A DNA stretch of 53,334 bases from an uncultured bacterium (GTDB taxonomy: Bacteria > Verrucomicrobiota > Kiritimatiellia > RFP12 > UBA1067). Position 1 is the stretch's first letter. Each line of letters begins with the position of its first letter. Of the stretch, positions 15,218 to 33,425 are shown one piece after another. The notes beneath the pieces were generated by a model that searched no databases, was not told where the DNA came from, and saw only the letters and a program-made list of their open reading frames with translations. The stretch is from the NCBI GenBank assembly GCA_902780865.1, contig CACZHC010000012.1:1-53334 (forward strand), given 5' to 3'. The position numbers and the translations under genes were made by a program.

Positions 15218-17935
15218 ATGAAGAATGGCATATATGGACATGCCATGCGCATTTTCTGCGTAGGGGTACTTTTTGCGTTTGCCGGCTTTGCTTCGCATGG
15301 CGCGGCGCATCGCTTTACTGTGACGCTGAATGCTGGTGCCGCGGCCGCTGAGAATGTGCCAGTAGCTCTTCGGCTTTCGCCGGGACTTGTCCGGGGTTTC
15401 GACTACGCGGTAGCAGGGGACGGTACTCACTTCGAGATTTCAGAAGAGAACGGCGCTATCCTCCCCTACGAGATCGACACTTGGAATCCAGATGGAGAGT
15501 CCCTCCTTTGGGTTAAGGTCCCGTTCTTCGTAAAAGGCAGGAAGCTGACCGTTGTATACGGTCGCACGAACGAGGACATGACCAATGCGGCGCAGGTTTG
15601 GTCGAACTACATCGGCGTCTGGCACATGAACGCCGTGAATGCCGCCGGCAAGTATCCAAACTCCACGGGTGACGCGCTGTTCGACGGCGAGGTGTCGTCA
15701 TTCTCAAAGGTTGGCGAGTCGGGCAAGTTTGGCCAGTCCGTCCTGATTTTCACGAACGCGATGCACTCCCTGAACAACGTGCCCGAAGCGAAAGAAAAGG
15801 GGGGTATGTTCATTCCCGACGGCGGCAACCTCAATCTGGTGAATAACTTCACGGTGTCCAGCTGGTTCAACCACGCGACGGTCGACAACCCCGCCATCGG
15901 CGCGGGCGATGACAAGACGCGTGCCTTTCGCTTCGACACACTCTTTTGCAAGCGGAAGCATCCGAAGGCGAATAACGCCCTCAATAATGGTTCGAGGGCC
16001 GGATTCTCCCTCCGTGTAAACGAAAACAAGCCCACGGCTGTGAATCTTGTCGTCAATGGACAAACGGACGCCGACAACGAGTCGCAGCTTCCTCGCTCGA
16101 TCGAGAACGGCGCATGGCAGCACCTGGCCTTGTCGTTCGATGCCGAGGGACGCTCTGCTACATGGCTCAACGGTGTCTGCGTCACAAACCACAACGTGAC
16201 CATACAGGACAACGACGAGCCGCTTGTCATCGGAAATACCTCCGCGGCCTATCGCGACAACGAGGGCAACCGAGCCTGGGGTGGGCATGCGGACGAAGTT
16301 CGCCTCCTTCGGGGAACACCGTCCGCTGCCTATCTCGCCGCAGAATACGCGGCAATGGCGAACGAGCATGAATATGGTTCTGAAACATGCCTGCTTACGA
16401 TTGACAAGAACGAGCATTTCGACGATTCTGTGACTGTATCTAGCGACATCCCGCCAGCCGCGGATGGCGCATACTACGTCGGTACGACTATCACGCTTAC
16501 GGCCGTTCCCAACGAGACTGGAACCTTCCGGAAATGGTACGGCGATGTCCCGCGGGAGGGTTGGACGAACGCAACGGTCTCTTTCGTCATTGAGCGCGAC
16601 AGCTGGGTCTACGCGCGATTTGTTCACCCGTGGACGCTCTCCGCCGACAAGACCACGATGAGCGACGGCAACTTCACGGTCTATGTCTCGGTCCTGAACG
16701 AGGGCGCGCATACGCTGACGGTCGGCAAGGCAGCGGAAGCCGGCCTTTCCCCCGAGAGCGACACCGGCATCGGGACGATTGATCTCGGCGGGCCGATCCG
16801 GCTTGCGGGTGACGCGACGCCCTGGACGATCGACAAGTTCGGGGGAAGCCGCGGATCGCAGTCCTTCCCGGTCTCCCGCACGAATGAAGTCCCTTTCCGC
16901 TATCTTTCTCCTGGAACCGTGACGACGACAGCCACGCATGGAACCCAGTTGTTCCACCGAGGTGACACTGGCGAGGACAAACCGCCGCTTTTTGGAGCTC
17001 CTTACACGATGATTGTCCTGGACGAGCCGGCAGGTTCGGCTTTGATCTGTAACTACATGTTTAGCAGTCAGGCCGATCTTACAAAGCTCATCATCCAGGC
17101 GCCGAACGTGACAGAGTTGTTCCGGTCGGGGGACGTCAACAGTGTTCTCGCCCGGGTTTTCTCCGCTCAGCCGTTGGTGGACACCCGGTTTGACTGGTGG
17201 GACCTACCGTCCGTATCCAGGATCCAGCACGGTTTCTTCGTGAAAGAGTGGGGGACCGACGGCTCGTTGCGTATACGCATTCCGGCCAAGGGCACACTCT
17301 CTCTCCCGAACCTGCGGGATATCGACTGGCTCGCTGAAACAACCGATTATGACGGCGGATCGCCGTTTTTATTGATGCCGAATGTGGAGGGGATATCTCT
17401 CGGTGGCGCGACCGAGGAGACAACGGTCACCAACCTCTGCACCTATGCGTTCGCCGGCGATTCGTCGCTTCGAAAGTTGACGCTCCATGCATCGCCCGAC
17501 ATGACGGTCGGGACGCGGATATTCTCCGACAAGTCATACAACACGAGCAATGGGGTGGAAGTTATCGACGGTGTTACCTACAGCACTGGTACACGAACCT
17601 CTCGGGGTCGCGTGCCGGACGTGATACACTTTACGGGGCAGGCAGTGTCGGAGGAGGCGGTCTCGAACCTTCTTGCGGATGTGTCTACGGTCTCGGCGGG
17701 CGCGAAACCGGTTGCAATCTACGCTTCGAAATATCAGGCGGGCTGGTGGGGCGTCGGTCGGGCCGAATGGATATCTACGCCGACTGCAAAAGAACGCGAC
17801 GCATATCCCGGCAAGAAGCTGCTCGGCGTTTACCGCGCAGGTGCCGCGGCGCCATCCGGCAAGGCGGTGATAATCCACTGCGACAATGATTGGGACAGGG
17901 GAATGGAACCGGGGCTTTTCATTCGTCTGCGGTAA
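15218..17935 (+). CDS. Large secreted DUF2341/LamG surface protein
   Basis: A 905-residue exported protein with a signal sequence (RIFCVGVLFAFAGFASHGAA). Residues about 30-130 match DUF2341 (HFEISEENGAILPYEIDTW, LLWVKVPFFVKGRKLTVVYG). A LamG sandwich follows (YIGVWHMN, SIENGAWQHLALSFD, WGGHADEVRLLRG), then an InlB-like beta-grasp repeat near 390-455 (YYVGTTITLTAVPNETGTFR, KWYGD). The C-terminal 400 residues look like a beta-solenoid or leucine-rich-like fold, not assigned, ending GLFIRLR. ATG 15218 is six bases after the -10 box and has no Shine-Dalgarno; ATG 15245 is an alternative, also without one. It is probably a surface glycan-binding protein. Confidence 0.75.
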   Translation: MKNGIYGHAMRIFCVGVLFAFAGFASHGAAHRFTVTLNAGAAAAENVPVALRLSPGLVRGFDYAVAGDGTHFEISEENGAILPYEIDTWNPDGESLLWVKVPFFVKGRKLTVVYGRTNEDMTNAAQVWSNYIGVWHMNAVNAAGKYPNSTGDALFDGEVSSFSKVGESGKFGQSVLIFTNAMHSLNNVPEAKEKGGMFIPDGGNLNLVNNFTVSSWFNHATVDNPAIGAGDDKTRAFRFDTLFCKRKHPKANNALNNGSRAGFSLRVNENKPTAVNLVVNGQTDADNESQLPRSIENGAWQHLALSFDAEGRSATWLNGVCVTNHNVTIQDNDEPLVIGNTSAAYRDNEGNRAWGGHADEVRLLRGTPSAAYLAAEYAAMANEHEYGSETCLLTIDKNEHFDDSVTVSSDIPPAADGAYYVGTTITLTAVPNETGTFRKWYGDVPREGWTNATVSFVIERDSWVYARFVHPWTLSADKTTMSDGNFTVYVSVLNEGAHTLTVGKAAEAGLSPESDTGIGTIDLGGPIRLAGDATPWTIDKFGGSRGSQSFPVSRTNEVPFRYLSPGTVTTTATHGTQLFHRGDTGEDKPPLFGAPYTMIVLDEPAGSALICNYMFSSQADLTKLIIQAPNVTELFRSGDVNSVLARVFSAQPLVDTRFDWWDLPSVSRIQHGFFVKEWGTDGSLRIRIPAKGTLSLPNLRDIDWLAETTDYDGGSPFLLMPNVEGISLGGATEETTVTNLCTYAFAGDSSLRKLTLHASPDMTVGTRIFSDKSYNTSNGVEVIDGVTYSTGTRTSRGRVPDVIHFTGQAVSEEAVSNLLADVSTVSAGAKPVAIYASKYQAGWWGVGRAEWISTPTAKERDAYPGKKLLGVYRAGAAAPSGKAVIIHCDNDWDRGMEPGLFIRLR

Positions 17936-17951
17936 GAAAGGGAAGATTGCG

Positions 17952-18809
17952 ATGAACAAGTTGTCCGCTGTCGTGTTGATGCTCGTTGCGTGCAGGACAG
18001 CCGCTGCTGTCATTGAACCAACCGCGCCGAACGCGGTTGATCACGCGCATGTCCGTGCGCCGCTGCAATTGGCCATCTTTTCAAGTCATGTAGAGGACAT
18101 AGCACGGCAGAAAGGCGTGTCTTTCGCGGAGGCGGCGGCTAAAGTGCGCACGGCAGGCATAAGTGGAATTACGGTGATGGATGGACTTGCCGCCGACAGG
18201 ATCGCCGCGGCGAGGAACGCGGGACTTGCGGTTGCGTGCGTCGTCGGATGGCCGGAGTTCGAGAAGGGCTACGATGAGGCGAAGTGCGAGGCGCTTGTGT
18301 CGCTTGCCGTATCTAACGGTTGCCATCAGGTGATGCTCGTGCCTGGGTTCTATCCATCGGCCGCCGAGGACGCCGCTCTTTTCGACGTGATCGTTCGCCG
18401 GACGAGGCGGTTCGCCGCCATGGCCGCAGCGCGTGGGGTGGAGACGCTTGTCGAGGACTTCGACGACGAACGATCGCCGACCTGCGGGATCCGGCGCACA
18501 AAAGCGTTTCTTGAAGCCGCGCCTTCTGTCGGTTTCGTCTACGACACCGGCAACTTCAACGGCCCGGGGGAGCGTGCCGAGAGCGGGCTTGAGCTTCTGC
18601 CGCGAACGCGGCACTTCCATCTTAAGGATCGCCCGTTCGGCGACAGCCGCGGTTCGTGCGCAGTGGGGTCTGGCGTTGTGCCCGTCGCGCGGATAGTCTC
18701 CGCTGCGCGCGACGCCGGCTACGGCGGGTGGTTTACCATCGAGCACTTTGGCGCGACAAATATGCTCGAGTGCGTCGAGGCCTCAGCGTCGTTTCTCCGT
18801 GCGCTTTAG
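17952..18809 (+). CDS. Exported sugar isomerase/epimerase-like TIM barrel
   Basis: A 285-residue protein of the xylose isomerase-like TIM barrel family (PF01261) with a signal peptide (MNKLSAVVLMLVACRTAAA). Metal-site residues are visible: Glu in LVEDFDDE, Asp in FVYDTGNFN, His/Asp in RHFHLKDRP and Glu in FTIEHFG. Family members isomerise or epimerise sugars or keto-acids. Substrate cannot be inferred. Shine-Dalgarno GGGAAG lies seven bases before ATG 17952, 16 bases after the LamG gene. It converges with and overlaps by four bases the regulator gene on the other strand. Confidence 0.8.
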   Translation: MNKLSAVVLMLVACRTAAAVIEPTAPNAVDHAHVRAPLQLAIFSSHVEDIARQKGVSFAEAAAKVRTAGISGITVMDGLAADRIAAARNAGLAVACVVGWPEFEKGYDEAKCEALVSLAVSNGCHQVMLVPGFYPSAAEDAALFDVIVRRTRRFAAMAAARGVETLVEDFDDERSPTCGIRRTKAFLEAAPSVGFVYDTGNFNGPGERAESGLELLPRTRHFHLKDRPFGDSRGSCAVGSGVVPVARIVSAARDAGYGGWFTIEHFGATNMLECVEASASFLRAL

Positions 18810-20104: not shown

Positions 20105-21421
20105 ATGAAGTTCATGTTTCTACACAACATGTCGAACGGCTTGCGCTATGGCATGGTAGTGGTTGCGGTTTCGTTTATTGCAGGAATAACCACCGCGGCA
20201 TCCCTCGACGTAGCGAGGTTTGGGAAGGAGCTTGCCTTCACGACGTCTGGCTATGATGGTTCGAGCGAACTGGAGCATCTGCCGGTTCTCGTGCGGCTGT
20301 CCGAGGAGATACCAGGATTTGCGTACGCCGATGTCGGTGCGACGGTGTCCGACGTTTATGGATCGCTACGCTTTGCCGACGACTCCGGAACTTCCCTCGA
20401 CTACGAGGTTGAATGCTGGGACACTTCTGGCGAGTCGGTCGTATGGGTGTCACTTCCGAGGGTCGACGGAAGAAACGTCAAATTCACTGCCTACTGGTCG
20501 GTACGTTCGAATTCCGCACTTCCAGAGGTGTTTCCGACAAACGTATGGATTTCCGCAGGCTATGTGGGCGTATGGCACTTCACGAATACCAGCAGCGATA
20601 AAAAGTATATTCCTGACGCGACCGGAAGAGACGCACGGCTTGTCGCGTCAGCCAGTCATGAGTCCATACAAGGTGTCGGCTCTACAGTCGATTCGTTTCC
20701 GCCGGGCATCAGAGAAAAGAAGGAAAGCGCGAACGGAACGCCATTCCGTCAGGCGGCATGGCCGAGACTTTCCGCCGCAAATACTTCTGATTGGACCTTT
20801 TCCCTGACGGGGTACAGCACGGAGGTGTGGTACAACTCGCATGGTCTTGGCTCCACGGCGAACAGCTATATATTCGCTTCTGCTGCTCAAACTAAATATG
20901 GCGCTGATGTGAATTGGAACCCCCACAACGGGATTCAGGTTTACGAGAAGCATGCCTTTCTTGTGCCGACAAAGGTGGTTTCAAGCGATGGTGCTGCAAC
21001 GAACCTTGTGCAGGTTTTTTCGACCAAATCGCCGCATTGGGCAGATGAAGCGACGAATTGCTGGCATTGGCTTTCGGCCGTCTGGCCACCCGTAGGGTCC
21101 GACCGCGCCGCAGTGCTGTACGAGGGCGGCGAGGCTTACGGTGGCGGATTGCGGCAGCTGGCCACCCATTCGTCAGTCGTCCACGCAATCGATTTCACTG
21201 CGCCTCCAGATGCGGCTTTCTATGGCGCGATGGGCATTGTCGGCGGTGCGGATAACAGCGGGAGTGCCAACATTTGCTGCGACGAGGCGCGTGTTCGCCG
21301 CGGCATTTCCAGCGAGGACTGGATCCAGGCCAACTGGGACACGCAGAGAGTGGGGTCGGATTTCTTGACGGCAGGAACGGTGAAGGTTCGGAATCTTGCG
21401 TTCTTCATCATAGTGCGCTAA
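20105..21421 (+). CDS. Secreted DUF2341/LamG surface protein
   Basis: A 438-residue exported protein: signal peptide (LRYGMVVVAVSFIAGITTAA), DUF2341 domain near residues 35-145 (SLRFADDSGTSLDYEVECWD, VVWVSLPRVDGRNVKFTAYW) and a LamG domain near 150-420 (YVGVWHFTNT, CCDEARVRRGISSEDWIQANWD). It ends LAFFIIVR. It shares its domain order with the larger protein at 15218. It is the first gene of an operon with the esterase and GH2 genes, so it probably binds the same polysaccharide at the surface. The Shine-Dalgarno is weak (AGAAAGAA). Confidence 0.78.
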   Translation: MKFMFLHNMSNGLRYGMVVVAVSFIAGITTAASLDVARFGKELAFTTSGYDGSSELEHLPVLVRLSEEIPGFAYADVGATVSDVYGSLRFADDSGTSLDYEVECWDTSGESVVWVSLPRVDGRNVKFTAYWSVRSNSALPEVFPTNVWISAGYVGVWHFTNTSSDKKYIPDATGRDARLVASASHESIQGVGSTVDSFPPGIREKKESANGTPFRQAAWPRLSAANTSDWTFSLTGYSTEVWYNSHGLGSTANSYIFASAAQTKYGADVNWNPHNGIQVYEKHAFLVPTKVVSSDGAATNLVQVFSTKSPHWADEATNCWHWLSAVWPPVGSDRAAVLYEGGEAYGGGLRQLATHSSVVHAIDFTAPPDAAFYGAMGIVGGADNSGSANICCDEARVRRGISSEDWIQANWDTQRVGSDFLTAGTVKVRNLAFFIIVR

Positions 21422-21439: not shown

Positions 21440-22666
21440 ATGAGCAGGCTTTCGGTTGTCGTCTCTTTGTCTGCTGCGTGCGCGGCATGCGCGGCGTTTG
21501 CGGCGGTCGCCGTCGAGATGGCGGAGCCGAAGGACGTGCCGCCGCTGTTCGCCGAAGGCGAGGCGCGGACCGTCGAGGAATGGCGCGACGTGCGCAGGCC
21601 CGCCGTAAAGAAGCTTCTCGAAAGCGAGGTCTACGGCCGCCGCCCCGTCGAACGTCCGCCGCACCTCGCTTTTTCCGCGCTTGAGCCGGACGCCGTGATG
21701 ATGGGCGGCGCGGCAATCCGCAAGCGCGTGCGCGTCGAATACGGCGGCGCGTTCGGCACGAACTCGTTCACGTTCACGGCGTTCATCCCGCGGCAGGAGA
21801 AGCCGGCCCCGTCGTTCGTCTTCGTCTGCAACCGCCCGCCGGACGAGGTCATCGACCCGACGCGCCGCGTGAAGAGCGGCTTCTGGCCTGCCGAGGAGAT
21901 TGTCGCGCGCGGCTATGCGGCGATAGCGTTCGCGTTCGACGAAGTGACGCCCGACCGCGAGCACGGCAACACGCTTGGCGTCTTCGCGGCGTTCGAGGAC
22001 GTGACGGCGAAGTACCGCCCCTATGACAGGTGGGGGGCGCTTTCCGCATGGGGCTGGGCGGCGAGCCTCGTTCTCGACTGGATTGAGACAGAGCCGTCTT
22101 TGGACGCGAAGCATGTCGCGGTGATCGGCCATTCGCGCGGCGGAAAGACCGCGCTCGTGGCGGCGGCGTGGGACGAGCGTTTCGCGATGGCGTGCTCCAA
22201 TGACTCGGGTTGCGGCGGCGCGAAGCTGCATCACGCCGACTTGCCTAATTCGGAGATGATCTCCCATTCGATCCGTTCGCGCGCGTTCTGGTACTGCAAC
22301 AGGTACAGGATGTGGGCGAATCGCGACAAGGAGACGCCGTTCGACCAGCACATGCTTGTCGCGATGATTGCGCCACGGCTTGTCTGCATCGGCTCTGCGA
22401 CAGAAGACCCCTGGGCCGGGCCCTGCGGCGAATACCTGACTGCGCGGCTTGCGTCTGAAGCGTGGCGCGTCTTCGGGCGGAAGGGGCTTGTGTCTGACGG
22501 CTTCCCCGCGCCAGAGACTCCGCAGCAGGACGGCGACATTTCCTACCATCTTCGACGCGGTGAGCACGACCTCACCCCGTACGACTGGAACGTCTACATG
22601 GACTTCGCGGACCGCCACGGCTGGCGGTGCGCGCGTGGGCAAGGCAAGGAGGAAGCTGGGGAATGA
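21440..22666 (+). CDS. Glucuronoyl esterase-like hydrolase (CE15)
   Basis: A 408-residue secreted alpha/beta hydrolase closely resembling bacterial CE15 glucuronoyl esterases, which cut the ester between lignin alcohols and 4-O-methylglucuronic acid on xylan. After the signal peptide (SVVVSLSAACAACAAFAAVA), the nucleophile is in GHSRGGKTAL (Ser232), followed by SNDSGCGGAKL. The PFDQHMLVAMIAPRLVCIGSA segment and an acidic residue in ATEDPWAGP follow, and the catalytic His is probably in RRGEHDLTPYDW. Shine-Dalgarno AGGGAG is a few bases before ATG. Its stop overlaps the GH2 start (ATGA), so the two are made together. Confidence 0.87.
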   Translation: MSRLSVVVSLSAACAACAAFAAVAVEMAEPKDVPPLFAEGEARTVEEWRDVRRPAVKKLLESEVYGRRPVERPPHLAFSALEPDAVMMGGAAIRKRVRVEYGGAFGTNSFTFTAFIPRQEKPAPSFVFVCNRPPDEVIDPTRRVKSGFWPAEEIVARGYAAIAFAFDEVTPDREHGNTLGVFAAFEDVTAKYRPYDRWGALSAWGWAASLVLDWIETEPSLDAKHVAVIGHSRGGKTALVAAAWDERFAMACSNDSGCGGAKLHHADLPNSEMISHSIRSRAFWYCNRYRMWANRDKETPFDQHMLVAMIAPRLVCIGSATEDPWAGPCGEYLTARLASEAWRVFGRKGLVSDGFPAPETPQQDGDISYHLRRGEHDLTPYDWNVYMDFADRHGWRCARGQGKEEAGE

Positions 22667-25600
22667 AAAGCCGGTGCATTTTCTTGGCAATGTGCGCTGT
22701 GGCGTTCGCCGCAAGCGGAGAAGTTGTATTGGATTCTGGCAAGCCTCGCTCTTTTGAAGCCGGGCAAAGCAAAGGCTGGAAGGTGAAGCTCGCGCCAGAC
22801 TGGGCCGTCTTGACAGTCAAGACGCGCGTCAAGCCGACGGACGTCGTTGTCGGGAAGGACAACTGGATGAACGCACGTGTCCCGATGAGCTTCCACGACG
22901 CGGACGGAAAGCAGGTCGGCGGCTGGCCGAACGTCTTCGGCTTCGAGGGGACGCACGACTGGATCGACTGCGAGCGCGACTACGCAGTGCCGGCGGGCGC
23001 TGCAAGTCTCAACATCGCGATAGGCAACTACGGGAAGTCCGGAACGGCCGAGTTCGCGCCGCTCACGGTCTCGGTGAAGCGTCGCCATGTGAAAGGGCCA
23101 TGCAACGCGCCGTTGCCAGATGGCGTGAAGGGCGATCCGTGGGGGCTTGACGACGCATGGTGCCAGAAGACGGCGACTCGTTCGCGCTGGTCTCTCAACG
23201 GGCTTTGGGGCTGGCGGCCGCCGCTTGTTGACGACAAGGAGGGCTTAGTGCCGGGTCCGGAGGACAACTGGGGTTGGGGCAAGATACCGTCCGTATGGGA
23301 CCGCGGCGACGAATGGCAGCGCGACGGGCAGATGGTCTATCTCTCTCCGTGGCTCGAAGACAATGGCGTCAAGCCGGGAATCGGCGACCGCGCGTGGTAT
23401 CGCCGCGATTTCACGATGCCGAAGGAGGCGGCGGGGAAGCGCATAGTCCTGACGTTCACGATGCTTCAGACCCATGCAGTCGTCTATGTCGACGGGAAGC
23501 GCGCGGCGGAGGTGTCGTTTCCTGGTGGCGAGGCGGACATCACGGAGTTCGCGAAACCCGGCGAAAGGCAGTCGATAGTCCTCGACGTGACGGCGTATCC
23601 GCTCAATCCCTTGACGCTCGATTTCAACGCGCCGGACCGGGCAACCGAGCGGAAGAGCGAAGTTAAGTACCGCGGCGTGACAGGCGACGTCTATCTCGAC
23701 GTGTTGCCGAAAGGTGCGCGTGTCGCCGACGCGACGGTGGAGTGCGACGTCAAGGGCGGCAAGGCGACGTTCGTCGCCGACTGCGAGGGCGTCTCGGGCG
23801 AAGTCGAACTTGAAGTGCATGTGTACGACACGGCGGATGTGGCGAAAGTCGGGTCGCTTAAGCCCGTATTCCGGGCCTTAAGCACTGGCACGAGGCCCGA
23901 TGCGGAGGGGCGCGTCGCATTTGCCGCGGACTTTGCCGGCGCGAAGAAGTGGGACGTCAACACCCCGCAGAACCGCTATGTTTGCGCGATGGAGTTGAAG
24001 GACGCGAAAGGGCGGACGCTCGATGCCGCGCTGCCGTTTGCGTTCGGGTTCCGAGACGTCCGCATCAATGGGCGCGATCTCTTGCTGAACGGCACGCCGA
24101 TCCATCTCCGTGCGCTCTACAACCGGTCCATCAATGCTTCTGCTGGCGTTGCTTGCCGCGAGTCGTCGCTCGAGTTATGCCGCCGTCTTAAGGAAGAGGG
24201 TTTCAACTACGTCATTGCTGGCAACTACAACTTCTCGCCAGGCGAGGTTTCCTATATGGACGACTTCCTCGATGCCTGCGACGAGACGGGAATGCTCTTC
24301 TCGTTCTCCCTGCCGCATGTGCGCGACTTTGGAATGAAGCTCGAAGACCCTGCGGTCGCGGCGCGGTATCGCACCCTCGCCAAGTGGTGCATCCGCCGCG
24401 CCAGGAACCACCCGAGCGTCGTCACCTACGCGATGAACCACAATTTCGCGGGCTATTCGGGCGACATGGATCCGCAGAGGATCGACGGGAAATACGACTT
24501 CGAGCCAGAGTCCGGCAACGGACGCGTGGAGGCTACGATCCGCACCCGTCGCCGTGCGCACGAGGCGTGGGCGATTGCGAAGTCGATAGATCCGACGCGC
24601 CCGATCTACCACCACGAGTCTGGCAATCTCGACGACTTCCACACGGTCAACATCTACCTCGACTGGGCTCCAGTGCAGGAGCGCAGCGACTGGCTTTCGC
24701 ACTGGAGCGGAGAAGGGGTGAAGCCGCTATTCTTCGTCGAGTGGGGCATGCCGCACATCTGCTCCTGGTCGAGCTACCGCGGACCGCTCTTCATCTGGCG
24801 CAATCCCGGCTACATGAGCTTGTGGGCGAGCGAATACGCGGCGGCGTTTCTTGGCGACGCGGCCTATTTCGGAAGCGACCCCTTGACGGTCAAGGCGCTC
24901 AAGAAGGAGGAATCGCTTTGGACGCGCCAACGGCCTTTCATGTGGACTGAGCTCAATGGGCCGCTCAGGGAAATGGAAGACCGCTACACCGGCGTCCAGT
25001 CCATTTACATGGCCGACAACTGGCGTAGCCACCGCGCCTGGGGCATCACCGCGATGCTGCCGTGGGACCAGGGCAACTTCCATCGTGGCGGAGGAACGCC
25101 GACGCGCGTCAATCCCCGCCGCTGGGAAGGGCTTAAACGCCCAGGCATCGTTCCCGACACGATCCGCGACGAGGGCTGGGACACTGGAACTGGCGACGCC
25201 TCGCGCTACGCCTTGAGCGCGGTTGGCGAGACGCTTGTCAGGTGGAATCGCGAGGACTGCGCGTTTATCGGCGGGAAGGGCGTGTTCACGGACAAGGCGC
25301 ATCATTTCCGCCCTGGCGATAAGGTGGAGAAGACGCTCGTAGTCATGAACGATCGCCGCGTTGCGCAAGATGTCGAATGGTCGTGCGAACTCGTCGGCGG
25401 GAGAGGGCGTATCGGCGAGGCGCTGCGTGGCAAGGTGGCTGTGCCGCCAGGGATGCGGCGCGATGTGCCGGTTTCGCTCGCTCTTCCAGATCGCGCAGGG
25501 CGCTATGTGCTTCGCGCGGAGTTCCGCTTTGCCGACGGCGTTGTGCAGAAGGATGAGTTTGGCGTAGAGGCCTACGCTGCCGCTGCGGTTGACGAGAAGT

Positions 25601-26910
25601 CAAAGACGCCGTTCCTCTACGATCCGAAAGGGATGACGGCTAAGGAGCTTGACCGGCTCGGGGTGAAGTATGTCCGCCTCTCCCTTGACGAATTTAAGAT
25701 GAAGGCGTCGGACGCGAATCTCGAACCAGAGACGCCGTTTGTCGTTGGCAGGGAGTGTCTCTCGCGCGAGCTAATGTACGGCGTCCTTGTTCCAGCTGCG
25801 CGGAAGTCACGTGCCCGCGTCCTCGTCTTCGAGCAGGACAAGACGACGCTTGAGGCGGTGGGTTTTCGAGTTCAAGCCTACGGACTCAGGACGACTTTCC
25901 CGCGCTTTCGCGACGACCGCCTCGGCCTTTCTCTCGACACCGCCATGCTGCGCGACTGGAACGGCGAATCGACTATAGTACCGCCTTACTTCGCAGACAT
26001 CCCGAGGAACGAGCTCAACTACCTGACGGACACATGGGCGGGCTACCTCAACACGCGCGTGTGGCGGTGCGGCAACCGTGGCTGCGTAGCGACGGTCATC
26101 CCGGAGAAGCCGACGGTAGGCGACTGGCGCGCACTCGTGGACGGCGGTTTCGATCTCCAGTATGCGCCGCTTCTTGACTGGACGATAGGCGACGGGCGCA
26201 TCACGTTCTGCCAGCTCGATGTCACCGCTCGGACGGCGGTCGATCCCGTGGCGGACGATGTCGTGCGTCGCCTTGTCTCGCGGCTTGGCGATGGCGTCAG
26301 GATCTGGTCGAAGAATCCCCGTGCGTTTGGCCGCACGGCGTGGATAGCGACGCGCGATCTCGCGAACGCCCTGAGGCAGCACGATGGCGACAGAGAGAGC
26401 GGTCTATACAGTGTCTATGTCGCCGCGTCTGGCGCTGAAAAGCCGAAGAACTTCCTTGACCGCGTTGCGAATGGAGCGAGTGTCCTCTGTCTCGGCTTCA
26501 CGGCGAAGGAAGTCGCTGAGTGGAGCCCTGTGCCACTCGAGATGGCACATACGAACGGATGCCTCGCTTCGCGCATAGAGGAACTGCCGGGGGTGCTGAA
26601 CGGACTTTCGAACGCCGACTGGTCGTGGCATGGCGAGATGGAATTCGATGCGTTCACTAAACCGGTGAAGGACGGCAACGAAGCGTTCCGTATAGTCAGG
26701 CACGGGAAGGGGAAGATTGTGTTCTGGCAGGTTCCGCCGTGGGCCATAGACGACGAGGCGAAGCCGTATCTTAGGACGACGAAGCGCCGTGCGCAGTATG
26801 TGCTCTGCAGGATTCTCGCCAATATGGAGATGGACTTCGCAACGGATGTGGTGCGCTATGCGGACGCCCCCATCCCGGAGGATGACCCGTATCGCTACTA
26901 CAGGTGGTGA
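22663..26910 (+). CDS. Giant secreted GH2-like glycoside hydrolase
   Basis: A 1,415-residue exported protein (signal MKSRCIFLAMCAVAFAASGE). Residues about 165-360 form a GH2 sugar-binding domain (IGDRAWYRRDFTMPKEAAGK, VVYVDGKRAAEVSFPGG). An Ig-like domain comes next, then a clan-A TIM barrel (VRINGRDLLLNGTPIHLRAL, HPSVVTYAMNHN). The likely nucleophile is Glu693 in FFVEWGMPH. The position where GH2 enzymes carry the Asn-Glu acid/base reads Asn592-His593, which is unusual. The last 400 residues hold further beta domains and a Rossmann-like segment (GRITFCQLDVTAR, GKGKIVFWQVPPWA). The substrate is probably a glucuronoxylan- or galactoside-type polymer, by context only. Confidence 0.82.
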   Translation: MKSRCIFLAMCAVAFAASGEVVLDSGKPRSFEAGQSKGWKVKLAPDWAVLTVKTRVKPTDVVVGKDNWMNARVPMSFHDADGKQVGGWPNVFGFEGTHDWIDCERDYAVPAGAASLNIAIGNYGKSGTAEFAPLTVSVKRRHVKGPCNAPLPDGVKGDPWGLDDAWCQKTATRSRWSLNGLWGWRPPLVDDKEGLVPGPEDNWGWGKIPSVWDRGDEWQRDGQMVYLSPWLEDNGVKPGIGDRAWYRRDFTMPKEAAGKRIVLTFTMLQTHAVVYVDGKRAAEVSFPGGEADITEFAKPGERQSIVLDVTAYPLNPLTLDFNAPDRATERKSEVKYRGVTGDVYLDVLPKGARVADATVECDVKGGKATFVADCEGVSGEVELEVHVYDTADVAKVGSLKPVFRALSTGTRPDAEGRVAFAADFAGAKKWDVNTPQNRYVCAMELKDAKGRTLDAALPFAFGFRDVRINGRDLLLNGTPIHLRALYNRSINASAGVACRESSLELCRRLKEEGFNYVIAGNYNFSPGEVSYMDDFLDACDETGMLFSFSLPHVRDFGMKLEDPAVAARYRTLAKWCIRRARNHPSVVTYAMNHNFAGYSGDMDPQRIDGKYDFEPESGNGRVEATIRTRRRAHEAWAIAKSIDPTRPIYHHESGNLDDFHTVNIYLDWAPVQERSDWLSHWSGEGVKPLFFVEWGMPHICSWSSYRGPLFIWRNPGYMSLWASEYAAAFLGDAAYFGSDPLTVKALKKEESLWTRQRPFMWTELNGPLREMEDRYTGVQSIYMADNWRSHRAWGITAMLPWDQGNFHRGGGTPTRVNPRRWEGLKRPGIVPDTIRDEGWDTGTGDASRYALSAVGETLVRWNREDCAFIGGKGVFTDKAHHFRPGDKVEKTLVVMNDRRVAQDVEWSCELVGGRGRIGEALRGKVAVPPGMRRDVPVSLALPDRAGRYVLRAEFRFADGVVQKDEFGVEAYAAAAVDEKSKTPFLYDPKGMTAKELDRLGVKYVRLSLDEFKMKASDANLEPETPFVVGRECLSRELMYGVLVPAARKSRARVLVFEQDKTTLEAVGFRVQAYGLRTTFPRFRDDRLGLSLDTAMLRDWNGESTIVPPYFADIPRNELNYLTDTWAGYLNTRVWRCGNRGCVATVIPEKPTVGDWRALVDGGFDLQYAPLLDWTIGDGRITFCQLDVTARTAVDPVADDVVRRLVSRLGDGVRIWSKNPRAFGRTAWIATRDLANALRQHDGDRESGLYSVYVAASGAEKPKNFLDRVANGASVLCLGFTAKEVAEWSPVPLEMAHTNGCLASRIEELPGVLNGLSNADWSWHGEMEFDAFTKPVKDGNEAFRIVRHGKGKIVFWQVPPWAIDDEAKPYLRTTKRRAQYVLCRILANMEMDFATDVVRYADAPIPEDDPYRYYRW

Positions 26911-26972: not shown

Positions 26973-27031
26973 GAAAGGAAACTGAAAATGGAAAGAAGAG
27001 AGTTCATAAAGGCAAGTGCGATGATGGCGGG
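26973..27031 (+). repeat. 59-bp start-cassette repeat, copy 1
   Basis: Identical over 59 bases to 28483-28541. It covers the Shine-Dalgarno GAAAGG, the spacer, ATG and the first 14 codons (Tat signal MERREFIKASAMMA). It uses AGA and ATA codons that are rare in the surrounding GC-rich genes. Confidence 0.9.
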
Positions 27032-28376
27032 CGCGATGGTTGCGCCGAAGGGCGCATTGGCCGACTCTGTCCTGAGAGCGCCGATGAAGGCGATCACGAT
27101 CTCGAAGACGAGCTGCGGCTTCGAGCGCGAGCCGATGGTGAGGCCGTTCGGCTTCAAGGGCGGGTACTTGACCGAGGAGTGGATCGTCTCCGCTTTCGTA
27201 AAGTCGACTTCAGGGAAGCACGGCATAGGACTTGGCACGCAGAATTGCCTCTGGTCCGATGCGAAGGTGTTTGCGTCCAATTCCGAGGCGGGCGGCAACG
27301 CGATCATGTTCTCGATGACGCAGTATGCGCTTAAGCTGCTCGTCGGCAAGACCTTTACCTCTCCTGTCGAGCTCAACGACTGGCTCTGGCCGCAAGTGTG
27401 GGAGTACGGCAAGAAGGTTTCGGCGAATCCCGACCTTCGCGCGACTTACGCCTTGAACGCGCTCGTCGCGGTAGACAACGCCGTGTGGGTTCTCTTCGCC
27501 CGAGAAAACGGGCTAAAGTCGTTCGACGAGATGATTCCGGGCGCCTACCGCCCAGCTCTTGCCGCGCATCACGCGAAGTGCGCGTCGATTCCGCTCTTCT
27601 CCTACAAGGTTCCGGTCGCGGAGATCAAGGAGGCGGTCGACTCGGGCTACTTCTTCATGAAGATCAAGATCGGCCAGCCAGGGACTCAGGAAGAGATGCT
27701 TGCAAAGGACATGGCCCGCGTCTCCGAGATACACGCCGTCCTGAAGGACTGCCGCACTCCCTACACGAAGTCGGGGAAGCTCCCTTACTACTTCGACGCG
27801 AACGGCCGCTACGAGAAGAAGGAGACGTTCCTCAAGTTCATCGACCACTTGAAGAAGATCGGCGCGTACGACCAGGTTGCAATCGTCGAGGAGCCGTTTG
27901 ACGAATACGCCGACATCGACGTGAACGACATTCCGCTCCGCCTCGCGGCGGACGAGTCGGCGCATACGGTGAAGGACGCGCTGGAACGCATCAAGATGGG
28001 CTATCGCGCGATGGCCCTGAAGCCGATTGCGAAGACGATGTCGATGTCGATGAAGATTGCCGAAGCCGCGTATGAAAAGGACATCCCCTGCTTCTGCGCG
28101 GATCTGACGGTATGTCCCGCGATGGTCGAGTGGAACAAGGCGGTTGCCTCGCGACTCCCCGCGTTCCCGGGGATTGGCGATCTCGGGCTCGTCGAGACGA
28201 ACGGGCACATGAACTTCCGCAACTGGGAGACGATGCGCAAGGATCTCGCCTATCCTGACGCGCATTGGACGCGCACCGAGAAGGGCGTCTTCGAGTGCGA
28301 CGCGGACTACTACGCGAAGTCGGGCGGGATCCTCGAGCCGATGTCGCGCTACGAAAAGATGTATGAGAAGGTTTAA
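26988..28376 (+). CDS. Tat-exported enolase-superfamily epimerase/dehydratase
   Basis: A 462-residue protein with a twin-arginine signal (RREFIKASAMMAGAM) and an enolase-superfamily barrel of the mandelate racemase/muconate lactonizing group. Visible active-site parts are the catalytic KIK (Lys225 and Lys227), metal ligands Asp in YYFDANGRY, Glu in VEEPFDEY and Asp/Glu in AADESAH, and the late Lys in MALKPIAK. Members racemise or dehydrate sugar acids or dipeptides. Next to a glucuronoyl esterase, a sugar-acid substrate is plausible. A Tat signal on this family is frequent in PVC bacteria. The first 14 codons are shared base for base with the next gene. Confidence 0.82.
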   Translation: MERREFIKASAMMAGAMVAPKGALADSVLRAPMKAITISKTSCGFEREPMVRPFGFKGGYLTEEWIVSAFVKSTSGKHGIGLGTQNCLWSDAKVFASNSEAGGNAIMFSMTQYALKLLVGKTFTSPVELNDWLWPQVWEYGKKVSANPDLRATYALNALVAVDNAVWVLFARENGLKSFDEMIPGAYRPALAAHHAKCASIPLFSYKVPVAEIKEAVDSGYFFMKIKIGQPGTQEEMLAKDMARVSEIHAVLKDCRTPYTKSGKLPYYFDANGRYEKKETFLKFIDHLKKIGAYDQVAIVEEPFDEYADIDVNDIPLRLAADESAHTVKDALERIKMGYRAMALKPIAKTMSMSMKIAEAAYEKDIPCFCADLTVCPAMVEWNKAVASRLPAFPGIGDLGLVETNGHMNFRNWETMRKDLAYPDAHWTRTEKGVFECDADYYAKSGGILEPMSRYEKMYEKV

Positions 28377-28482: not shown

Positions 28483-28541
28483 GAAAGGAAACTGAAAATG
28501 GAAAGAAGAGAGTTCATAAAGGCAAGTGCGATGATGGCGGG
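28483..28541 (+). repeat. 59-bp start-cassette repeat, copy 2
   Basis: Copy of 26973-27031 with no mismatch. It supplies the ribosome site and Tat signal of the Gfo/Idh gene. Between it and the upstream repeat this copy has about 11 extra bases (TTAAAGTTTAA). Confidence 0.9.
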
Positions 28542-29922
28542 TGCTATGGCCGTGCCGAATATCCTGAGGGCGCAGGGCTCCAGGGGACGCGTGCGTATGG
28601 GATTCATCGGCGTCGGGAACCGCGGAACGCAGCTTCTCCACATTTTCATGAAGAACCCGCTTGTCGAGGTGACGGCGCTTGCAGACATCTACGAGCCGTA
28701 CCTGAAGCGCGACGATTCCGCGTTCGACCCGAAGTTCCTCGAATGGGGGCTTAAGGGGCGGCTTCCGAATTTCCGCAACAAGGACGGCTCCCTGAAGAAG
28801 CAGGAAGTCGAGCTTGCCGAGCGCATCAAGGCGGGAACGTGCAAGCTCTACAAGGACTACAAGGCGCTTCTCGCGGATCCGAACGTCGACGCCGTCTGCA
28901 TTGCGACGCCCGACCACTGGCATGCGATTCAGACAATCGACGCGATCAAGGCCGGGAAGGACGTCTACTGCGAGAAGCCCCTCACGGCGACTGTCGCCGA
29001 GGGGCGCGCGATGGTGAATGCCCAGAAGAACTCGCGGCAGATCGTCGCCGTTGGCCTGAACCGTCGCGGCAACGACGCGTATCGCGAACTCAAGAAGGCG
29101 ATTGCGACGGGGAAGTATGGCTTATTCCGCACGGGCCGCGCCGCGCGCGTCTCGAACATCTGCCCGAACGGAATCGGCAAGTGCCCGCCGTGCGAGCCGC
29201 CGAAGGGCATGGACTGGGACGCGTGGCTTGGGCCTCGCGCCTACCGACCCTACAAGTACACGATCGCGCCGTACTACTTCCGCTGGCAAGTCGACTTCTC
29301 GAGCCAGGTCGGGAATTGGGGCGTCCACTATCTTGACGCGATGCGCTGGATGATGGACGAAAGGGCGCCTTCCGCGATCACGGCCGTCGGCGGCAAGTAC
29401 TACACGGGCGATCGCTCGGACGCGACGATTCCCGACACGATGTTCTGCATCTTCGAGTTTGCGAGCGGCAAGGCGATGGAGTTCAACGTCTTCGAGGGCG
29501 GGCGCTCCAATCCGATCAAGCAGGGCGAACTTGAGCTCGCCTCTGGAGACGCCACGATCTTCGCAGACCAGCAGGGCTGGGAGATACTTCCTTCGAAGAG
29601 CAAGGAGTTCAACAATCCCGTAAACACCTTCGCGCCGCAGAAGTACGTCTTCAAGGAGGCGCTTCTCGACGACGGTTCTGCGGAGAGCGCGACGAAGAAC
29701 GTGATAGGCGACTTCGTTGACCGCTGCATCGACCGCAACCCCGCCGTCCTCTGCCCGCTCGAGGAAGGGCATCGCTCGACTTGTTTCGCGCATCTCGCCA
29801 ACATCGCCTACAAGCTCGGCCGCCGTCTCGAATGGGATGCTGATGCGGAGCGCTTCACGAACTGCGACGAGGCGAACGCGCTGCTTCACTACAGGTACAG
29901 AGACGGCTACAGCCTCGGCTGA
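28498..29922 (+). CDS. Tat-exported Gfo/Idh/MocA oxidoreductase
   Basis: A 474-residue NAD(P)-dependent oxidoreductase with a twin-arginine signal. The Rossmann motif is GFIGVGNRGTQ, and the family EKP motif appears as VYCEKPLTATV, whose Lys is usually catalytic. VGNWGVHYLDAMRWMM is the typical His/Asp segment. In this secreted branch (IPR PVC-type Gfo/Idh) NAD(H) is thought to stay bound and the enzyme acts on glycosides or inositols, some by redox-assisted hydrolysis. The start at ATG 28498 is set by the AAAGGAAA ribosome site. It is probably co-transcribed with the enolase-type gene. Confidence 0.88.
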   Translation: MERREFIKASAMMAGAMAVPNILRAQGSRGRVRMGFIGVGNRGTQLLHIFMKNPLVEVTALADIYEPYLKRDDSAFDPKFLEWGLKGRLPNFRNKDGSLKKQEVELAERIKAGTCKLYKDYKALLADPNVDAVCIATPDHWHAIQTIDAIKAGKDVYCEKPLTATVAEGRAMVNAQKNSRQIVAVGLNRRGNDAYRELKKAIATGKYGLFRTGRAARVSNICPNGIGKCPPCEPPKGMDWDAWLGPRAYRPYKYTIAPYYFRWQVDFSSQVGNWGVHYLDAMRWMMDERAPSAITAVGGKYYTGDRSDATIPDTMFCIFEFASGKAMEFNVFEGGRSNPIKQGELELASGDATIFADQQGWEILPSKSKEFNNPVNTFAPQKYVFKEALLDDGSAESATKNVIGDFVDRCIDRNPAVLCPLEEGHRSTCFAHLANIAYKLGRRLEWDADAERFTNCDEANALLHYRYRDGYSLG

Positions 29923-31370: not shown

Positions 31371-32312
31371 ATGGACAGACGCGAATTCCTGACATCCGCT
31401 TCCGCCGCGGCGCTCGTCGGGTGCACGACCGGCGGACGCATCGGTGACGCACAGACTGCGGACATCGAGTACCACGTGTTCTCAAAGATGTTCCAGCCGC
31501 CTGTGACGAAGAGCCCCGAGGAGCTGTGCGAGCTCATGAAGAAGGCGGGGTTCGACGGAATCCAGTGGACCGTGCGCAAGGGCGGACACGTCGACCCCGC
31601 GAACGTCGCGGCGGATCTGCCGCGCCTGTGCCGAATAGCCGAGAGCTTCGGCCTCAAAAACAGGTCGATCTGCACAGACATAACGTCCGACGCCTCCGGT
31701 CGACCCGGCCTTTCTGACGGCGCCGAGACGGCGCTCAGGGTCGCAGCGGACTGCGGCATCGGGATGTTCCGTCCGGCGTACTTCTTCTACGACGCAAAGA
31801 ACGAGTCGTTCGCACGATCTCTAGAGCGCATCCGCCGCGGCTTCGCCGGTCTTGCGCGGCTTGCGGAGCGGACGGGCGTGAAGGCGACGTACCAGAACCA
31901 TTCGTCGTGGGGCCCGAGCGTGTTCGGCGGGCTCGTCTGGGACGTTTACGAATGCATCCGAGACCTTGATCCCCGACATGTCGGGCTTGAGTATGATCCG
32001 ATGCACGCTTTCTTCGAGACGAACCTCTCGTGGACGCACGGATTCGACCTTGTTGCGCCGTGGATATCGTCCGTCGACCTCAAGGATTTCCACTACTGCC
32101 TTGACGCGAAGAACGAAAAGATGATGAAGAAGGCGATGGTCGCGGCAGGAGATGGCGTCGTTCCGTGGAAGACGGTGCGCGACCTTGTCGCGGCCCACGA
32201 ACTGCGTCCGCTCTACATCGTCCATTTCGAATACGATTTCGACAAGTCAGACCTCCTGAAGGCGGTCAAGACCGAAGTCGACGCGTTTAGAAGTGTTCTC
32301 GCTCTGGAATAG
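31371..32312 (+). CDS. Tat lipoprotein, xylose isomerase-like TIM barrel
   Basis: A 313-residue protein beginning MDRREFLTSASAAALVGC, a twin-arginine signal with a lipobox (ALVGC), so it is probably a membrane-bound lipoprotein. The rest is a PF01261 sugar isomerase/epimerase barrel, with metal ligands likely Glu in YQNHSS-linked strands, Asp in GLEYDPMHAF, Asp in SVDLKDFHY and Glu near HFEYDFD. It closes the carbohydrate operon begun upstream. After its stop comes a good Shine-Dalgarno (GAAAGGAGG, 32314-32322) with no gene behind it. Confidence 0.8.
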   Translation: MDRREFLTSASAAALVGCTTGGRIGDAQTADIEYHVFSKMFQPPVTKSPEELCELMKKAGFDGIQWTVRKGGHVDPANVAADLPRLCRIAESFGLKNRSICTDITSDASGRPGLSDGAETALRVAADCGIGMFRPAYFFYDAKNESFARSLERIRRGFAGLARLAERTGVKATYQNHSSWGPSVFGGLVWDVYECIRDLDPRHVGLEYDPMHAFFETNLSWTHGFDLVAPWISSVDLKDFHYCLDAKNEKMMKKAMVAAGDGVVPWKTVRDLVAAHELRPLYIVHFEYDFDKSDLLKAVKTEVDAFRSVLALE

Positions 32313-33159: not shown

Positions 33160-33236
33160 GGGGCTGTAGCTCAACTGGATAGAGCATCAGACTACGAATC
33201 TGAGGGTTGTGGGTTCGACTCCCGCCAGCCCCGCCA
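33160..33236 (+). tRNA. tRNA-Arg (ACG)
   Basis: A 77-base cloverleaf with acceptor GGGGCTG/CAGCCCC, D-loop AGCTCAACTGGATAGAGC, anticodon loop CTACGAA in the TCAGA/TCTGA stem, T-loop GGGTTCGACTCCC, and an encoded CCA end. Anticodon ACG, expected to be edited to ICG by TadA. Confidence 0.95.
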
Positions 33237-33252
33237 GTCGGAGAAGCCAGAT

Positions 33253-33329
<77 letters not shown>

Positions 33330-33348
33330 ATCTAATCTGGCACGCCGT

Positions 33349-33425
33349 CGGACCGTAGCGCAGCCTGGTAGCGCGTTTGCTTGGGGTGCAAAAGGTCACG
33401 AGTTCAAATCTCGTCGGTCCGACCA
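33349..33425 (+). tRNA. tRNA-Pro (GGG)
   Basis: 77 bases, acceptor CGGACCG/CGGTCCG, D-arm AGCGCAGCCTGGTAGCGCG, anticodon loop TTGGGGT in the TTTGC/GCAAA stem giving anticodon GGG, T-loop GAGTTCAAATCTC, encoded CCA. The CGG acceptor start is typical of proline tRNAs. Confidence 0.95.

Follow-up and report, generated by a model that had tools for sequence, protein, structure and literature searches.

The window, which is the whole stretch of 53,334 nucleotides that we analyzed (contig CACZHC010000012.1 of assembly GCA_902780865.1), comes from an uncultured gut bacterium of the Kiritimatiellia and includes a gene for a large protein with a GH2 fold (Table 1). The ATG of this gene overlaps the stop codon of a CE15-type glucuronoyl esterase gene (as ATGA), and the sequence AAGGAGG lies about 10 bases upstream of the ATG, so the two genes are very likely translated together. 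Judging by eye, the GH2-fold protein has a probable N-terminal signal peptide.

Downstream of the GH2-fold gene are a MR_MLE enolase-superfamily protein (26988-28376) and a Gfo/Idh/MocA oxidoreductase with a TAT signal (28498-29922); these two proteins share their first 17 residues, MERREFIKASAMMAGAM, which resemble a TAT signal. The nearest NCBIfam model for the oxidoreductase is glycoside 3-dehydrogenase, at 114.6 bits, which is far under the cut-off of 750. TIM barrels of the AP_endonuc_2 family are encoded at 17886-18809 and 31371-32312; together with the oxidoreductase, they resemble the gene sets for oxidative 3-keto deglycosylation. The proteins encoded at 15218-17935 and 20105-21421 have weak matches to DUF2341, and the first of these also has a LamG-type lectin domain and a match to Flg_new_2. 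They are perhaps surface glycan binders. There are also three tandem tRNA genes at 33160-33422.

Table 1. Features of the GH2-fold gene and of the esterase gene that precedes it. Residues are numbered from the start of the GH2-fold protein, and counts are of family members.
Feature	Position	Strand	Basis
CE15-type glucuronoyl esterase gene	21440..22666	+	PF22244, E = 4.6e-30; ATGA overlap with the GH2-fold gene
GH2-fold protein, 1415 amino acids	22663..26910	+	ORF and translation; Pfam GH2 domains; model and PDB matches
GH2 N-terminal sugar-binding jelly-roll, residues 243-307	23389..23583	+	PF22666, E = 1.8e-6
TIM barrel, residues 482 (beta1) to 802 (just past beta8)	24106..25068	+	Strands in the model; PF02836
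VVTYAMNHN, which ends beta4 at the acid/base place and has no Glu (24442-24444 encodes Asn594)	24418..24444	+	Alignments
Asp601, loop after beta4	24463..24465	+	Asp or Glu at 601 in 73/94
His651, just after beta5	24613..24615	+	His in 91/94
Tyr665, just after beta6	24655..24657	+	94/94
Glu673, on the short helix that follows beta6, in P-x-Q-E-R-x-D-W	24679..24681	+	Glu in 85 and Asp in 9 of 94; helix in the model
Glu693 in beta7, nucleophile place	24739..24741	+	94/94; pairs with the Glu that is the nucleophile in ordinary GH2s
Glu724, start of helix alpha7	24832..24834	+	94/94
Ig-like domain, residues 863-971	25249..25575	+	4kkq_A, Z 12.9, rmsd 2.0, 104 aligned
Possible class I amidotransferase-like domain, residues 979-1213	25597..26301	+	8hx9_B match; Arg1076 and Trp1099 invariant

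Pfam gives the protein the N-terminal domain of GH2 (PF22666, 28.6 bits with a cut-off of 27) and the GH2 TIM barrel (PF02836, residues 467-727), the latter at 21.4 bits, which is barely above the cut-off of 21. NCBIfam's models for beta-galactosidase and beta-glucuronidase match it at scores that are far under their cut-offs. A structure prediction had been proposed when the gene was first read from its sequence, and the AlphaFold2 model of residues 225-1415 (85 aligned sequences; pLDDT 90.9, pTM 0.92) bears out the GH2 fold. The best PDB match from Foldseek was the GH2 enzyme 8u01 (E = 4.6e-32), with low TM-scores for the whole model (0.35 by query length, and 0.44), and the best PDB match from VIA-align was another GH2 enzyme, 6b6l_A (Z 23.6, rmsd 4.1, 426 aligned). 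From Pfam, the model, and the PDB matches, the domain order is as expected for GH2: the sugar-binding jelly-roll comes first, then the Ig-like domain, and then the TIM barrel. In the model, VVTYAMNHN (residues 586-594) closes strand beta4 (586-591) and the Glu693 of FVEWG lies inside beta7 (689-694), where residue numbers are model numbers plus 224. Both motifs are within 24400-24760.

Beyond the barrel, a further model, which covers residues 862-1415 (pLDDT 88.7, pTM 0.90), shows another Ig-like domain, followed by a region that we tentatively describe as a class I amidotransferase-like domain. The amidotransferase-type chain 8hx9_B was one of 50 matches listed for that region (residues 979-1213; Z 11.4, rmsd 3.6, 174 aligned), and there was no chain of this type among the 50 Foldseek matches listed for the C-terminal half. 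No GH42 chain was seen among the matches listed for this half either, which excludes nothing. Because Arg1076 and Trp1099 are invariant across all 85 sequences that were aligned, the C-terminal half probably takes part in the function of the protein.

GH2 enzymes have a catalytic acid/base Glu, preceded by Asn, at the end of beta4. The sequence-only reading had claimed that the protein lacks this Glu, and a family-level search, which it had also proposed, confirms this. We collected a family of 94 sequences: the query and 93 relatives from its phylum. At 90% identity, these form 85 clusters. None of the 94 has Glu anywhere in the aligned residues 589-598. Seven have Asp in this range, and none of those is at 593-595. 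The pair His-Asn is found at 593-594 in 53 of the 94 sequences. By contrast to the acid/base Glu, the claim that Glu693 is present at the nucleophile place holds for every member. This residue, in beta7, aligns with the Glu that is the nucleophile in ordinary GH2s, so the same role is predicted for it.

The exact register at beta4 depends on the alignment. When phmmer aligned the protein to 6u7i, His593 was paired with the Asn of "Asn-Glu" and the alignment stopped just ahead of the Glu; when a profile of the family was aligned to 5uj6, Asn594 was paired with the Glu itself. Against LacZ, L028, and L157, there is a one-residue insertion, so that the Asn is matched by Asn594 and the Glu by residue 595. 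In a MAFFT alignment with ten ordinary GH2s, Asn594 is opposite the Asn in six of them and opposite the Glu in the other four. With either register, there is no Glu at the acid/base place. Residue 595 is variable across the family (30 Ala, 10 Phe, 10 Ser, 8 Gln, 7 Tyr, and others among the 94). The original reading was right that VVTYAMNHN is the acid/base segment, but its equation of Asn592-His593 with Asn-Glu differs by one or two residues from all of these alignments.

How well is the family separated from ordinary GH2s? A hidden Markov model for the barrel, built from 48 sequences, had 110 distinct hits, and no hit scored between 145.6 and 65 bits. We dropped 3 incomplete sequences and 13 that scored below 66 bits (ordinary or other GH2s, as well as 2 fragments). 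All of the 48 sequences already lacked the acid/base Glu, and relatives weaker than our cut-offs (E = 1e-30 or 1e-10) are mostly outside the family set, so intermediates could have been missed.

We compared the family to ten ordinary GH2s, all from the same phylum, that were chosen from 13. (L040 and L154 were left out because they were missed by the pattern for the site, and L155 because it is incomplete.) This comparison used 84 rows for the family: nine near-copies were set aside, as was L005, which is the remaining copy of one of the paralogues in the query's genome. In a quick tree, with the motif columns removed and with some long branches, the family lies on one side of a branch from the ten ordinary GH2s (SH-aLRT 100), and the 45 rows with His-Asn form one clade (99). 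(In the alignment for the tree, L023 is out of register at its nucleophile segment.) Four more residues that are present in all ten ordinary GH2s are each found in under 20% of the 84 family rows: His near 488, Arg near 518, His near 521, and Glu near 549. We take these to be the counterparts of LacZ's His357, Arg388, His391, and Glu416. Since these four common residues are gone and the family forms one clade, the active site appears to have been rebuilt, and our best reading of the alignments is that the family left ordinary GH2 in this way. The earlier suggestion of a new branch of clan GH-A thus stands as far as the branch is concerned, given the support of 100 and the loss of further GH2 residues.

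No named family model describes this group. At E = 0.01, 62 of the 84 barrels match PF02836 and 50 match PF00703; the matches from NCBIfam are to GH2 enzymes only, except for one stray match.

The missing Glu does not reflect a problem with the genome or its assembly: the genome has 13 matches to PF02836, of which 2 belong to the rebuilt family, and the other 11 are ordinary GH2s that all keep Asn-Glu, so the loss belongs to the family. Nor is it the decay of a single gene: the Glu is missing from every family member, while Glu693, Tyr665, and Glu724 are invariant and 673 is always Glu or Asp. Relative to four relatives at 93-95% identity, dN/dS is 0.12-0.14 over the whole gene and 0.06-0.11 when only the barrel is counted; relative to L013, dN/dS is 0.17. 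This purifying selection, along with the invariant Glu693, supports the earlier view that the enzyme is unlikely to be dead.

Our best explanation, to which we give slightly less than an even chance, is that the protein is an active glycosidase-like enzyme in which Glu693 would be the nucleophile and another conserved group would supply the acid. We infer that this enzyme would be secreted and would act on a carbohydrate, with the architecture of GH2 plus the C-terminal Ig-like domain and perhaps the amidotransferase-like domain. Glu693, on beta7, would attack the sugar, aided by Tyr665 on beta6 (which we take to be the place of LacZ's Tyr503) and by Asn594 on beta4 (which is Asn in 90 of the 94 members). 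It had also been suggested that a different residue acts as the acid/base; this is plausible, and the alignment offers named candidates.

Our first choice to replace the lost Glu of beta4 would be Glu673. Apart from Glu693 and Glu724, no acid is more constant, and Glu673 should be on the active-site face, just after beta6. At this column, which is in a poorly aligned loop, the ten ordinary GH2s have Thr (3), Glu (3), Asp (2), Pro (1), or Ser (1). Because some family members have Asp instead and because 5 of the 10 ordinary GH2s also have an acid, Glu673 might be less family-specific than it seems, or merely structural. (Position 676 is also Asp or Glu in 91 of 94 members.) The second choice would be Asp601, in the loop that bore the old Glu. 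Somewhere in 595-603, there is an Asp or Glu in 89 of the 94 members, including all 53 with His-Asn at 593-594. The third choice would be His651, alone or with a carboxylate; at this column, the ordinary GH2s have Glu (6 of 10) or Ala (4 of 10). There are exceptions: 5 of the 94 members have no acid in 595-603, 3 lack His651, and 4 lack the supporting Asn594 (L017, L086, L088, and L091).

We also considered Glu724 as the relocated acid. The automatic alignment is poor there, and we ranked it lower despite its invariance because, by eye, its segment resembles the E-[FY] at the start of alpha7 in L156 and L157. Glu724 was possibly inherited from GH2.

A more specific proposal is that this is an undescribed glycoside hydrolase family that arose from GH2, relocated its acid/base to the loop after beta6 (Glu673) or to the loop after beta4 (Asp601), kept the nucleophile on beta7, and has a new sugar site. 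We think that this full combination is somewhat unlikely. The new sugar site would perhaps be completed by the C-terminal domain with Arg1076 and Trp1099.

Alternatively, the loss of the acid/base Glu and of the four other residues that are common to the ordinary GH2s could mean that the glycosidase activity is gone. The barrel would then be a module for binding or sensing glycans, with the invariant residues holding the ligand, and it fits with this idea that Arg1076 and Trp1099, which lie outside the barrel in the C-terminal half, are as invariant as residues of the barrel. But all 94 members keep Glu693, Tyr665, and an acid at 673, which a mere binder does not obviously need, so we consider a non-catalytic protein unlikely.

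Another possibility is that the protein is catalytic but does not carry out retaining hydrolysis. The reaction would be an inversion or an elimination, with Glu693 as the general base and an acid from elsewhere in the protein. In clan GH-A, the Arg at the place near 518 contacts the nucleophile, so its loss might point this way, as might the invariance of Arg1076 and Trp1099 and the downstream Gfo/Idh/MocA protein with its distant match to glycoside 3-dehydrogenase. However, Tyr665 and Asn594 are kept, and their counterparts in GH2 serve the retaining mechanism. Also, Gfo/Idh/MocA genes are near few other members of the family: at a threshold of 1e-8, relatives of this gene were found at just four loci (L113, L115, L122, and L136) beyond the near-identical loci L041-L044, and Gfo/Idh/MocA proteins account for 3 of 83 nearest neighbors. 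We consider a non-retaining reaction to be improbable.

It is more doubtful still that Glu693 acts with no acid from the protein, as in myrosinase, because the leaving group of the substrate is a good one or the acid comes from the substrate itself. The shortage of constant acids would make sense: within the barrel, only Glu693 and columns 673 and 724 are acidic in every one of the 94 members, and 595 varies. But more of the site has changed here, while in myrosinase the GH1 site is otherwise intact, and no thioglycoside-related gene was recognized among the neighbors (in the best 25 of the 80 families for 83 neighbors).

Finally, a carboxylate from a nearby segment might occupy the usual acid/base place, so that the site would be spatially close to that of ordinary GH2s, and Asp601 is just seven residues past Asn594, but this seems very unlikely given that none of the alignments places a Glu on beta4 itself and that four other common residues are lost too. 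Overall, we favor an active glycosidase-like enzyme with Glu693 as its nucleophile and a replaced acid, and from the pattern of conservation, the family may well cleave sugars in a manner that is not yet described.

The operon with CE15 had been taken as another argument that the enzyme is functional. The coupling is real in this genome and in four near-identical relatives (L041-L044), where CE15, enolase-superfamily, and Gfo/Idh/MocA genes flank the GH2-fold gene as they do here, but it says little about the family. At the other loci that we examined (all but L001), tblastn at 1e-8 found neither CE15 nor the enolase-superfamily gene; many of the flanks were about 1.5 kb, and a distant CE15 could be missed at this threshold. 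We do not consider the partnership with CE15 to be a family trait. While the GH2-fold genes of these relatives are 93-95% identical to the query, identity to the esterase gene (21440-22666) is about 70% for L041 and L043, 94% for L042, and 99% for L044, as if the CE15 esterase had been exchanged between relatives.

More broadly, none of the loci examined revealed a partner gene that is conserved across the family. When we clustered the ORFs from 62 stretches, using a crude choice of ORFs that included some antisense ones, the only recurrent neighbor group besides the family itself was of proteins of about 258 amino acids, in 19 of the 62. Among the 83 nearest neighbors from 47 loci, Pfam's hits (the best 25 of 80 families) included Peripla_BP_3 (7), GntR (5), and DUF1559 (5). 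Some of these neighbors are related to sugars, in line with our best explanation: besides Peripla_BP_3 and GntR, they include LacI (2), L-rhamnose isomerase (1), GH39 (1), and alpha-L-fucosidase (1). We do not rely on the neighborhood to indicate the substrate. The L-rhamnose isomerase (RhaA) is a single case: it is at 10616-11860 of L113, whose GH2-fold protein is 65% identical, and it is directly upstream on the same strand.

The family is not rare in its phylum. The query's own genome, which is 85.57% complete, has three nearly full-length relatives (36% identity) as well as fragments of more distant relatives on contig C24. Across 387 sampled genomes from the phylum, 52 have matches to the protein at E = 1e-30 (this includes its own genome, and some match one part only). 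At E = 1e-10, a cut-off that also admits ordinary GH2s, 20 of 58 nearer genomes have matches. The near-identical relatives are from metagenome-assembled genomes of Lentisphaerae or Kiritimatiellae, which GTDB places in the Verrucomicrobiota. To look beyond the phylum, we used a method that finds close relatives only: one scan of genome contigs gave just four near-identical loci, and a scan of viral contigs with this single protein gave no relatives. We found no such family in the titles and the beginnings of abstracts of papers on the replacement of the acid/base in GH2 or GH-A, on GH2s from Kiritimatiellae, or on the amidotransferase domain of GH42. Annotation by similarity would call the family members GH2 beta-galactosidases, which is probably wrong, and the family may hide unknown activities for degrading polysaccharides. 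By keeping one catalytic Glu while dropping the other and its neighbors, the family would also provide a natural experiment in how the active site of a glycosidase can be rebuilt.

The closest known system is GH2 itself (the LacZ, beta-glucuronidase, and exo-beta-galactosidase types). The family shares its jelly-roll, Ig-like, and TIM barrel domains, and it keeps Asn at beta4, Tyr at beta6, and Glu at the nucleophile place of beta7. It differs from GH2 in the missing acid/base Glu and in the loss of the Arg near 518, the His near 521 and 488, and the Glu near 549; the query protein also has extra C-terminal domains, and its matches to NCBIfam's models fall far short. GH42 enzymes have an amidotransferase-like domain, and both GH42 and GH5 enzymes have both catalytic Glu, one of which is missing from our family. 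Like the fold of the query, GH42-type enzymes and Op5Man5 are TIM barrel glycosidases; Op5Man5 is a verrucomicrobial exo-mannosidase from GH5, with a GH42-like build outside of GH42 (PMC8233224). As for a catalytic His, there are GH3 enzymes with an Asp-His catalytic dyad, such as NagZ from B. subtilis (PMC6403190), which set a precedent for a TIM barrel whose catalysis does not depend on a lone Glu. GH3 is a different family, and a His-carboxylate pair is only a possibility in ours. Myrosinase (GH1), which acts on thioglycosides, is also a TIM barrel glycosidase without the acid/base Glu. In myrosinase, Gln replaces that residue and the rest of the GH1 site is kept, while in our family more has changed. 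The usual description of clan GH-A has one fixed Glu on beta4 and another on beta7; the family that we describe here has the Glu of beta7 and lacks the one on beta4.
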